Assembly (NCBI RefSeq): GCF_007097245.1
Contig: NZ_VJZT01000007.1
Location: 62,001 to 126,000 of the forward strand
DNA length: 64,000 nt
Direction of reading: 5' to 3'
DNA from: Flavobacterium restrictum
GTDB taxonomy: Bacteria > Bacteroidota > Bacteroidia > Flavobacteriales > Flavobacteriaceae
Under the pieces are notes generated by a model. It was given only the letters and a program-made list of their open reading frames with translations. It was not told where the DNA came from and did not search any database. This document shows, piece by piece, positions 45,165 to 49,546 of the stretch (position 1 is its first letter; every line of letters starts with the position of its first letter). The translations under genes and the position numbers were made by a program.

Positions 45165-47696
45165 ATGCAAAAAATTCAAGGTTACTTTTTTTTAATTCTT
45201 TTTTGTAGCTTACAAATAGTATGTGCACAACAACCACAAAAACCCGATGCAGTTGCTATTTATGACCAAATTCAAAAACTCAACTTTTTGGGTTCCGTGC
45301 TCTACATAGCAGCGCATCCTGATGATGAAAACACACGCTTAATATCCTATTTATCCAACCATACCAAAGCGCGCACGGGTTATTTGTCCTTAACTCGTGG
45401 CGACGGCGGTCAAAACTTAATTGGTGCCGAATTGCGAGAATTACTGGGAGTGATTCGCACGCAAGAACTCATTGAAGCTCGGAAAATTGATGGCGGAGAA
45501 CAATTTTTTTCTCGTGCCAATGATTTTGGATATTCAAAAAATCCCGACGAAACACTGCAAATTTGGGATAAAGAAAAAGTGCTTTCTGATGTGGTTTGGG
45601 CCATCCGAAAATTCCAACCCGATGTCATTATCAATCGGTTTGACCACCGTTCGCCAGGCACAACACATGGACATCATACCGCATCGGCGCTGTTGAGTGT
45701 GGCCAGTTTTACAATGGCCAATGACCCCACTATTTTCCCAGAACAATTGCAATGGGTTCAACCGTGGCAAGCCAAACGACAATTTTTTAATACTTCTTGG
45801 TGGTTTTATGGCAGTCAAGCTAAATTTGATGCGGCTGATAAAACCAATTTGTTGGCCATTCAAAACGGAGTTTACTTTCCCTCTATTGGCAAATCAAACC
45901 AAGAAATTGCAGCTTTGAGTCGCAGTCGTCATCAATCACAAGGTTTTGGTAGCACGGGTGTTCGTGGCGAAGATGTTGAATATTTAGACCTCATAAATGG
46001 AGATTTAGTCAAGGATAAAACCTCAATTTTTGAAGGAATTGACACCACTTGGAATCGTGTAGCAGGCGGTAAACCCATTGGCGAATTACTATCCAAAATC
46101 ACCTCTCAATATGATTTCAAAAATCCTGCAGCCAGTATTCCAAATTTGATAAAAGCCTACAACAAGATGCAAGCTTTAGGCACAAATCATTGGACAATTT
46201 TAAAATCCGAAGCCATAAAAAACATCATTGCTGCCTGTGCTGGTTTGTATCTAGAAGCCGTGGCTCAAAACCAAGAAGCCACTCCCGGCAGTACCATAAA
46301 AATCAAAATCGAAGCTATAAATAGGAGCGATGTTCCGATGCAATTGGTACGTTTAACGGCACTTCCTAATCGTCAAATTGTACCACAAAACCTAATGTTG
46401 AAAAATAATAGTGCCCCAAAAATCGGTTTTGATATGCTATTGCCAACAACCATAAACTACACACAACCCTATTGGCTTGCCGAAAAAGGAACTGTAGGAA
46501 TGTATATCGTAAAGGATCAAAAAAATAGAGGGATTCCAGATATTATAAGGGAAGCAAAAGTGATTTTTACGGTTTTGATAAATGGAACCGAACTTGATTT
46601 TGAACAAAATGTGGTCTACAAATACAATGATGGCGTAAAAGGCGAAGTCTACAATTACTTGGATATTGTTCCCGAGGTGACCACTGCAATTCAGGACAAA
46701 GTATTTTTATTTAAAGAGGAAAAAACCAAAACTATTCCCGTAAAAGTAATTGCTGGGAAAGACGCAATTACAGGAAGGGTACAACTCGAATTACCTGAAA
46801 ATTGGATTGTTTCACCCCAGTCATTTCCATTTACTTTAGAAAAAAAAGGAAGCGAACAGCTGTTCTATTTTGATGTCACCCCACCAAAGGAAGCCTCCGA
46901 AGCAACTGCCAAAAGTAGCGTCACAATCGATTATAAACAATTCGATAAAGAAAAAATAAGTATCGATTACAATCACATTACCAAGCAGCAGGTTTTGAAA
47001 TCAGCAGAAGCAAAATGTATCAAAATTGATTTAAAAACCAATTCCGAAAAAATAGGTTATATTATGGGAGCTGGCGATGAAGTTCCCAAAAGCTTAATCC
47101 AAATGGGCTATAGCGTTACACTCCTCAAACCCGAGGATATCACGCCCGAAAAATTAGCCGTTTTTGATGTCATTATAACTGGAATTAGAGCCTACAACAC
47201 CATGGAATTCCTTGCCAAAAAACAAACTATTCTTTTTGATTTTGTCAAAGAAGGCAAAACCATGATTGTACAATACAATAATCCAGACGAATTGATTACC
47301 CAAAACATAGCACCATACCCGATGAAAATTTCAAAAGATCGCGTTACCGAGGAAAATACTCCAGTTCGATTTTTGGCCCCCAATCATCCCGTTCTCAATA
47401 TTCCCAATACCATTACGGAAAAGGATTTTACAGGCTGGAAACAAGAGCAAGGATTGTATTACCCCAATGAATTTGACAAAGCTTTTACTCCAATTTTAAC
47501 TGCAAATGACAAAGGCGAAACACCCAAAAATGGGGCTTTATTAGTGGCTCCATACGGAAAAGGATTTTATGTGTATACAGGTTTAAGCTTTTTTAGAGAA
47601 TTACCAGAAGGTGTTTCGGGGGCTTTTAGATTGCTATCCAATATGATTTCCTTAAAAAATGCTACGCAAGAAACCGTCCAAAAAACCACTCACTAA
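45165..47696 (+). CDS. exported PIG-L family deacetylase, large
   Basis: The gene encodes 843 residues with a signal peptide (MQKIQGYFFLILFCSLQIVCAQ). The PIG-L/LmbE domain covers about residues 40-260: the zinc motif AAHPDDEN at about 50-57, GDGGQN, LGVIRTQELIEAR, DVIINRFDHRSPGTTHGHHTAS. A beta-sandwich middle region follows (about 370-630). The C-terminal third resembles a class I amidotransferase-like fold: GYIMGAGDEVPKSLIQMGYSV, ITGIRAYNT and APYGKGFYVYTGLSFFRELPEG. PIG-L enzymes remove acetyl groups from N-acetylglucosaminyl substrates; this one would act in the periplasm. The two genes behind it encode a tiny membrane protein and a symporter. Confidence 0.88.
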   Translation: MQKIQGYFFLILFCSLQIVCAQQPQKPDAVAIYDQIQKLNFLGSVLYIAAHPDDENTRLISYLSNHTKARTGYLSLTRGDGGQNLIGAELRELLGVIRTQELIEARKIDGGEQFFSRANDFGYSKNPDETLQIWDKEKVLSDVVWAIRKFQPDVIINRFDHRSPGTTHGHHTASALLSVASFTMANDPTIFPEQLQWVQPWQAKRQFFNTSWWFYGSQAKFDAADKTNLLAIQNGVYFPSIGKSNQEIAALSRSRHQSQGFGSTGVRGEDVEYLDLINGDLVKDKTSIFEGIDTTWNRVAGGKPIGELLSKITSQYDFKNPAASIPNLIKAYNKMQALGTNHWTILKSEAIKNIIAACAGLYLEAVAQNQEATPGSTIKIKIEAINRSDVPMQLVRLTALPNRQIVPQNLMLKNNSAPKIGFDMLLPTTINYTQPYWLAEKGTVGMYIVKDQKNRGIPDIIREAKVIFTVLINGTELDFEQNVVYKYNDGVKGEVYNYLDIVPEVTTAIQDKVFLFKEEKTKTIPVKVIAGKDAITGRVQLELPENWIVSPQSFPFTLEKKGSEQLFYFDVTPPKEASEATAKSSVTIDYKQFDKEKISIDYNHITKQQVLKSAEAKCIKIDLKTNSEKIGYIMGAGDEVPKSLIQMGYSVTLLKPEDITPEKLAVFDVIITGIRAYNTMEFLAKKQTILFDFVKEGKTMIVQYNNPDELITQNIAPYPMKISKDRVTEENTPVRFLAPNHPVLNIPNTITEKDFTGWKQEQGLYYPNEFDKAFTPILTANDKGETPKNGALLVAPYGKGFYVYTGLSFFRELPEGVSGAFRLLSNMISLKNATQETVQKTTH

Positions 47697-47707
47697 CCTA
47701 TCCTAAA

Positions 47708-47815
47708 ATGGAAAATAAAAAAACAAAAACTTGGAAAAAAGAGTACAGTTGGGTACTGGCAATGAATGTTATTTATATCCTTATTTTTTTTCTAATCATG
47801 AAATTATACTCGTAA
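47708..47815 (+). CDS. 35-residue membrane protein preceding the symporter
   Basis: This is a complete ATG-to-TAA frame of 35 codons, too short for usual gene calling. It starts 11 bases after the PIG-L stop and ends three bases before the symporter ATG. The product has a Lys-rich N-terminus with two Trp (KTKTWKKEYSW) and one membrane helix (VLAMNVIYILIFFLIMKLY). Positive-inside charge suggests an N-in, C-out topology. The tight spacing, start codon and helix pattern argue for a real gene. A small stabilising or regulatory partner of the symporter is the most natural inference. Confidence 0.72.
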   Translation: MENKKTKTWKKEYSWVLAMNVIYILIFFLIMKLYS

Positions 47816-47818
47816 ACT

Positions 47819-49546
47819 ATGCAATTATTTGATTGGATTATCTTGATCGTAACCTTATTATTCATTGTGATTTATGGGGCTTGGAAAACCAAAGGCAGCA
47901 AAAACGTAGAAGACTTTATTCTCGGCAGCAACGAGACGCCCTGGTATACCGTGGGTTTGTCAGTCATGGCGACGCAAGCAAGTGCCATCACCTTCCTGTC
48001 TACACCCGGACAGGCGTACCACGACGGAATGGGTTTTGTGCAATTCTATTTTGGTTTGCCCATTGCTATGATACTTATTTGTGTCACTTTTATTCCCATT
48101 TACCATAAATATAAAGTGTTTACGGCTTATGAATATCTCGAAAAACGCTTCGATTTAAAAACACGTTCGCTGGCAGCTATCCTTTTTTTGGTACAACGAG
48201 GTTTAGGAACGGGACTTACCATTTATGCGCCAGCCATTATTTTATCGGCGTTGTTGGGATGGAACCTTACGTATATGAATATTATAATTGGGATTTTAGT
48301 TATCATTTACACATTTTCGGGAGGGACAAAAGCAGTAAATGTGACTCAAAAACAACAAATGTTTGTCATTATGCTGGGGATGTTTATTACTTTTTTCTTG
48401 ATTTTGCATTACCTTCCTAACGACATGACTTTTACAAATGCGATGCATATTGCTGGGGCAAATGACAAAATGAACATTGTAAATTTCTCTTTCGACCCCG
48501 AAGAAAAATACACTTTTTGGAGTGGTATTACGGGTGGTTTTTTTCTGGCATTGGCGTATTTTGGTACCGATCAATCGCAAGTAGGACGCTATTTATCAGG
48601 GAAATCAGTTCGTGAAAGCCAAATGGGTCTTATCATGAACGGACTTTTGAAAGTGCCCATGCAATTTTTTATTCTGCTTACTGGTGTGATGGTTTTTGTT
48701 TTTTTTCAGTTCAATCCTGTTCCACTGAACTTTAATCCAAACAATAAAATTATCATCGAAAAATCGATTTACAAGGACGAATACCATGTTTTAGAAAAAA
48801 AACTGGATGCCCTTTCCGAGGATAAAAAAGTAATCAACCTTTTGTACATTGATCAATTGAATCAGGATTATGACAACCCAACCTTGCGAAAAGAATTGGT
48901 GGCCTTATCCAATAAGGAAAAAGATTTGCGTGACCGTGCCAAAGAAATCATCTCAAAAGCAGACAGCAATAGCGAGACCAACGACAAAGATTATGTGTTT
49001 TTCCATTTTATTTTGAATTATTTGCCCAAAGGACTCATTGGTTTATTATTGGCCGTAATTATCTCGGCAGCGATGTCATCTACAGCATCGGGATTGAATG
49101 CATTGGCATCTACAACTGCAATCGATATTTACAAACGCAACCTAAAAGAAGAAAAATCCGAAAAACATTACCTCAATGCTACCAAATTTTTTACCCTTTT
49201 ATGGGGGATTATCGCTATCCTTTTTGCGTGTATTGGCACTCTGTTTGAAAATTTAATCCAGCTAGTAAATATCATCGGATCCGTGTTTTATGGTACGGTA
49301 TTAGGCATTTTCTTGGTGGGATTTTATATCAAATTTGTTCATGCCAAAGCTATTTTTTATAGTGCTATTATCAGTCAAATTACTATTTTTATCATATACT
49401 ATTACGCCATTTATATCTATCCAAGTGGCGAAGAAAAATTAGGTTATTTGTGGCTTAATTTTATTGGAGCGGTCTTGACTATAATGATAGCCTCGGTGTT
49501 GCAAGCGACTATTTGTAGAACCTCAAAAAGTAGTACTGCTTCTTAA
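47819..49546 (+). CDS. sodium:solute symporter (SSS family)
   Basis: The 575-residue protein has about 13-14 membrane helices in the LeuT-type fold of SSS. Recognisable parts are DWIILIVTLLFIVIYGAWKTKG, the early FLSTPGQAY motif, TFSGGTKAVNVTQKQQ, and AAMSSTASGLNALASTTAIDIYKR, which carries the conserved Ser/Thr sodium site. A charged helical stretch of about 85 residues (about 310-395) interrupts the helices before the sodium-site helix. The substrate is unknown; linkage to an exported PIG-L deacetylase suggests a sugar or amino-sugar product. A strong terminator follows. Confidence 0.9.
   Translation: MQLFDWIILIVTLLFIVIYGAWKTKGSKNVEDFILGSNETPWYTVGLSVMATQASAITFLSTPGQAYHDGMGFVQFYFGLPIAMILICVTFIPIYHKYKVFTAYEYLEKRFDLKTRSLAAILFLVQRGLGTGLTIYAPAIILSALLGWNLTYMNIIIGILVIIYTFSGGTKAVNVTQKQQMFVIMLGMFITFFLILHYLPNDMTFTNAMHIAGANDKMNIVNFSFDPEEKYTFWSGITGGFFLALAYFGTDQSQVGRYLSGKSVRESQMGLIMNGLLKVPMQFFILLTGVMVFVFFQFNPVPLNFNPNNKIIIEKSIYKDEYHVLEKKLDALSEDKKVINLLYIDQLNQDYDNPTLRKELVALSNKEKDLRDRAKEIISKADSNSETNDKDYVFFHFILNYLPKGLIGLLLAVIISAAMSSTASGLNALASTTAIDIYKRNLKEEKSEKHYLNATKFFTLLWGIIAILFACIGTLFENLIQLVNIIGSVFYGTVLGIFLVGFYIKFVHAKAIFYSAIISQITIFIIYYYAIYIYPSGEEKLGYLWLNFIGAVLTIMIASVLQATICRTSKSSTAS

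Follow-up and report, generated by a model that had tools for sequence, protein, structure and literature searches.

MAP17 (PDZK1IP1) is a one-helix partner of the SSS/SLC5 transporters SGLT2 and SGLT1, and the sections of two reports that deal with it describe it as an essential auxiliary component of human SGLT2 (PMC9616851, PMC10803289). It docks on TM13 of SGLT2, where it and the bundle domain form a fixed scaffold, and the same sections favour an effect on folding and localisation over a direct one on activity (PMC10803289; see also PMC9616851). AcrZ, MgtS, MgtU, MgtR and SgrT, all under 50 aa, also act on transporters, as the relevant part of PMC10710835 sets out, but these belong to other transporter families, and we compared the proteins through the family libraries only. 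That part of the source gives no small protein for any SSS symporter (PMC10710835). The terms 'small subunit', 'accessory' and 'small protein' never occur in a review of prokaryotic SSS transporters (PMC7918813), and malic enzymes are the only proteins to which the relevant portion of a Haloferax acetate paper assigns small subunits (PMC7746861).

Two models in the protein family libraries likewise describe small proteins named after a symporter, NF045580 (symport_access, a symporter accessory protein) and TIGR03647 (Na_symport_sm, the VC_2705-type small subunit). We take the members of NF045580 to be one-helix proteins encoded beside SSS genes, and those of TIGR03647 presumably have two helices. 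One-helix accessory proteins of SSS symporters elsewhere are mostly named by context.

Here we examined a 64,000-nucleotide stretch of Flavobacterium restrictum DNA (the window), in which the original prediction had placed a small membrane protein gene in front of a sodium symporter gene. A literature search by title and start of abstract found no paper on this protein, and the phrase 'symporter small accessory protein' was absent.

Results

A small gene between PIG-L and symporter genes

The small gene occupies positions 47708-47815 on the forward strand and consists of 35 codons followed by TAA, encoding the peptide MENKKTKTWKKEYSWVLAMNVIYILIFFLIMKLYS. It had been predicted to fill the space between its neighbours with gaps of 11 and 3 bases, and the coordinates agree: the PIG-L gene ends at 47696 and the symporter gene starts at 47819. 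The description of a single-helix protein with a Trp- and Lys-rich N-terminus was also borne out, as five Lys fall within residues 1-11, Trp is found at positions 9 and 15, and there is one hydrophobic stretch. A scan for sigma-70-like promoters and terminators, outside whose scope Bacteroidota promoters fall, listed none between the genes.

The upstream gene (45165-47696, forward strand) encodes an 843-aa PIG-L family deacetylase (Pfam PIG-L, 7.4e-14) with an apparent signal peptide by eye. The downstream gene (47819-49546, forward strand) encodes an SSS/SLC5-type sodium symporter of 575 aa, in which we found both the SSF domain (Pfam SSF, 2.9e-40; TIGR00813, 7.6e-69) and the SSS fold. Its model has 13 transmembrane helices by eye, TM7 and TM8 being separated by an inserted helical hairpin, and is nearest to SiaT (5nva; Z 44.5, rmsd 2.3, 465 residues aligned), followed by NIS, SMCT1 and SGLT1/2; solved SSS chains match the symporter sequence mostly as two stretches. 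The hairpin, of about 75 residues, is encoded at 48737-48961 of the window and would be expected from the topology to be periplasmic. The insert is independent of the small frame, with a median of 90 aa at 234 scorable loci that have the frame versus 89 aa at six that do not. Assignment of the symporter to the VC_2705 type was rejected (TIGR03648 gave 67.6 bits, short of its cut-off of 320.75). No symporter match at E<=1e-60 was found in plasmid records. The pairing of PIG-L and symporter genes seen at 45165-49546 is common in Bacteroidota and suggests that an amino sugar or conjugate is taken up in deacetylated form.

The small gene accompanies one kind of symporter

To follow the gene in other genomes we used a profile, A1, built from 29 small frames, and an iterated HMM; adjacency in the genus and family tables was judged by eye from coordinates. 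The symporter was found in 91 of 101 genus genomes and a match to A1 at E<1e-7 in 90 of 101, all of them among the 91. The single symporter genome of the genus without a strong match (G182) shows only symporter residues 235-563, and none of the ten symporter-less genomes gave a strong match, three of them reaching E 0.03-0.09. In the family, 136 of 149 genomes carry the symporter and 128 of 149 match A1 (E<=0.01), with no match in the 13 genomes that lack the symporter. Seven of the eight family symporter genomes without an A1 match have a diverged frame detected by the iterated HMM, and one has none (G064, locus L191). In one further genome (G079) the small frame lies on a different contig from the symporter.

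Across the phylum the symporter was present at E<=1e-80 in 114 of 296 genomes, and the small frame was still found beside symporter relatives as distant as about 37-40% identity. The iterated HMM matched 181 of 196 loci versus 2 of 16,185 control frames, both of which were displaced copies of the small gene. In a separate collection of named organisms, including Chryseobacterium, Pedobacter, Chitinophaga, Dyadobacter and Taibaiella, 70 of the best 80 loci had the frame (in 62 cases overlapping the symporter by 4 bases), and 0 of 10,717 control frames matched; these 80 loci carry Bacteroidota-type organism titles except for one uncultured bacterium. The frame was present at 79 of 80 additional family loci, at all 58 loci of genus and family that were retrieved through the symporter and at 330 of 355 loci pooled. 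Once loci fetched through the small protein were left out, it was found at 282 of 304 symporter loci. Neither absence of the frame from relatives nor a frameshift with the symporter preserved, the outcomes named beforehand as telling against the gene, was seen as a rule. Collectively, these data show that the small gene lies directly before one kind of sodium symporter in many Bacteroidota lineages.

The PIG-L gene is a usual but not an obligatory neighbour: we detected it upstream of the symporter at 217 of the 272 loci for which 900 or more bases of preceding sequence could be read. Where PIG-L was not detected upstream, the small frame was retained at 43 of 55 loci, and PIG-L plus symporter with no recognised frame occurred at only 11 of 217 loci, indicating that the frame tracks the symporter and not PIG-L.

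Symporters without the frame

No recognised frame was found at 19 of 350 distinct symporters, of which two are outgroup paralogs and one has no upstream sequence. The remote paralogs L196 and L197 (35-36% identity) and, by eye, the nearer paralog L379 have no such frame. At L111, L191, L258 and Kapaibacterium loci the small gene appears, by eye, to have been cleanly deleted, so that PIG-L immediately precedes the symporter. The retention of the symporter at such loci indicates that the small protein is dispensable in some lineages and not universally required. Five loci with Kapaibacterium or Melioribacter titles (L175, L177, L200, L211 and L212) have PIG-L abutting the symporter and no small gene, while their sister L174 has one. 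At L185 and L187 the position immediately in front of the symporter is taken, as judged by eye, by a different one-helix frame that lacks the W/Y motif; it may be a replacement or a case of extreme divergence.

Spacing and natural separations

The distance between the small gene and the symporter gene ranged from -7 to +16 bases in 319 of 330 matches and from 17 to 88 bases in the other 11, and in 96 of 330 the small gene overlapped the symporter start by 4 bases. Four genomes from a single genus (G271, G282, G298 and G344) have about 15 kb between the two genes. Named by eye at L194 and L195, the block in between holds NagB-like, PIG-L, ECF/FecR/SusCD-like, MFS transporter and ROK kinase genes; this block is of amino-sugar type. 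The displaced small gene was intact in all four genomes, and no replacement frame was noticed at the symporter. Comparisons of the displaced copies gave synonymous to non-synonymous codon differences of 8:1, 7:4, 6:3, 4:3, 3:2 and 1:1, a modest synonymous excess. At L285 (G087) the small gene lies 379 bases from the symporter, and another frame lies within that spacer. The intact state of the gene at about 15 kb and at 379 bases argues that its product would act in trans.

Codon evolution and translation start

The original prediction had proposed a dN/dS test. Comparing 42 distinct loci of the genus across the final 30 codons, we found pS 0.60 and pN 0.15, giving a dN/dS of about 0.14 versus 0.03 for the symporter. 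The excess of changes at third positions was reached in 0 of 20,000 permutations of the same 42 loci. As judged from these codon comparisons, selection on the small gene is purifying, with protein-like codon evolution.

The translation start region (47693-47707, forward strand) overlaps the end of the PIG-L gene and has A at -3. The relevant part of a ribosome profiling study of F. johnsoniae reports that A at -3, -6, -12 and -13 favours initiation (PMC6847099). Of 82 distinct loci, 83% have A at -3 and 73% have it at -12, figures that are supportive only, with the nearest ATG chosen as the start; A at -6 was unremarkable (45%).

One conserved helix face

Six columns are invariant in the 29 rows of A1, namely W9, Y13, V16, N20, Y23 and F27 (codons within 47732-47788, forward strand), with a spacing of 4-3-4-3-4. 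The conservation moment at 100 degrees was 0.486 versus 0.163 on average after shuffling (p about 5e-5), and the conservation periodicity peaked at 101 and 99 degrees in the near and distant parts of the family. Conservation on one side is predicted by packing of the helix on a partner, and is not predicted by a lipid-only anchor or a leader. The net charge on the N-side averaged +2.0 versus +0.35 on the other side, and was greater on the N-side in 117 and smaller in 36 of 181 sequences; this distribution suggests an N-in/C-out orientation.

Structure models and coevolution

When the window's own small gene and symporter were modelled by AlphaFold as a read-through with a 2-residue spacer, the small helix had a pLDDT of only 55-65. 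In a natural read-through locus with a 15-residue spacer, helix residues 11-30 reached 85-88 and the spacer about 36; read-through pLDDT does not show contact, as a lone helix might score as high. In fold searches with the models, coverage is limited to the symporter and does not extend to the small helix. Reduced-alphabet mean-field DCA (324 pairs, Neff 204) gave a top inter-protein score of 0.77 versus 0.65-0.71 for three shuffled pairings, and its top inter-protein pairs were scattered across the symporter.

Discussion

The small gene at 47708-47815 is confirmed as a real, conserved gene. Its product is probably a one-helix accessory subunit of the inner membrane that would pack against the SSS/SLC5 symporter and support it. 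The small protein would be made together with the downstream symporter, and its helix would span the inner membrane with the Lys/Trp-rich N-terminus inside and the C-terminus in the periplasm. The face formed by W9-Y13-V16-N20-Y23/I24-F27-M31 would lie on the transporter at a putative binding site, and the helix may support folding, stability or activity of the symporter through a presumed stabilising or activating effect. The suggestion that the protein is a small subunit or regulator of the symporter is supported in part: conservation widely in the phylum, tracking of the symporter and one conserved helix face speak for it, with physical contact still putative. The protein is not a universal requirement, since in a few lineages the symporter persists and the frame is absent.

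The very short spacing between the genes, with four-base overlaps in 96 of 330 matches, would also be expected of a leader or translational-coupling element, at which ribosomes that stop reload at the symporter start and the sequence of the peptide is irrelevant. We consider this highly improbable, because residues are conserved on one face of the helix and dN/dS is about 0.14. The separations likewise speak against a leader alone: the gene has stayed intact at about 15 kb in four genomes, at 379 bases (L285) and at 17-88 bases (11 of 330). There were no Rfam matches at E<=0.1 within 47400-48100. Service to PIG-L, or to the inner membrane generally, or self-assembly of the small protein, with adjacency to the symporter for co-expression only, would fit the frequency of PIG-L as a neighbour (217 of 272 loci), and the conserved face could equally reflect self-association. 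This too is very improbable, given that the frame is kept at 43 of 55 loci without PIG-L, that the frame is only exceptionally missing where PIG-L and the symporter occur together (11 of 217), and that PIG-L has an apparent signal peptide and, by eye, no evident membrane anchor.

A protein that binds the symporter might instead restrain it, as a negative regulator or turnover adaptor, in the manner of SgrT on PtsG or of MgtR, which acts through FtsH-dependent degradation. Such small regulators of transporters are known, as the part of PMC10710835 devoted to them describes, and the losses in some lineages show that the symporter can exist without the small protein. The fixed coupling of the two genes would be atypical of a conditional inhibitor, and we regard this explanation as unlikely. 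The supporting accessory subunit is the reading that we prefer. The small proteins form a family that is found widely within one phylum and is closely linked to a single clade of transporters, and heterologous studies of such symporters may have left out a subunit.

Identity with a known family was rejected. When 57 members were compared with the libraries, the weak and scattered matches were taken as chance between hydrophobic helices. The best in Pfam were DUF2976 (3 of 57, best E 0.0017), DUF5964 (0.0036), FixQ (0.0058) and others, and the best in NCBIfam were AmaP (2 of 57, 0.004) and others; a PDB search with the small protein gave nothing better than E 0.72. NF045580, a 33-position model, resembles the small protein in its proposed role. 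A short one-helix protein beside an SSS gene, the trait ascribed above to NF045580 members, was found at 282 of 304 loci, with a single helix in both models. However, none of the 57 members matches NF045580 at E<=0.1; this model found nothing above its 35-bit cut-off in the window's own genome or in 296 Bacteroidota genomes, where matches at E<=0.001 were absent as well. TIGR03647 (DUF4212) is a longer model of 77 positions, which none of the 57 members matches at E<=0.1 and for which the window's own genome has nothing over the cut-off. The small protein therefore apparently represents, as far as these searches reach, an undescribed family of candidate one-helix accessory proteins of SSS symporters.

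In our best reading, the role of the small protein may be comparable to that of MAP17. Homology in sequence to MAP17 (PF15807) was not found, as one of 57 members matched at E 0.099, taken as chance, and the rest gave nothing at E<=0.1. The modelled symporter differs from the SGLTs in having no counterpart of their TM13, the alignments stopping near SGLT residue 550-570; the IL6 loop, placed at SGLT1 residue 581 in the sections that describe it, lies beyond that end (PMC9616851, PMC10803289). It is conceivable, if rather doubtful, that the small protein is a bacterial counterpart of MAP17, in which case the symporter would stop at TM12 and the 35-residue helix would supply a scaffold helix in trans. 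If so, one-helix auxiliary subunits would be a general, perhaps convergent, feature of SSS transporters. The locus offers tractable bacterial genetics for asking what makes a one-helix partner necessary for some SSS/SLC5 transporters, human SGLT2 among them.
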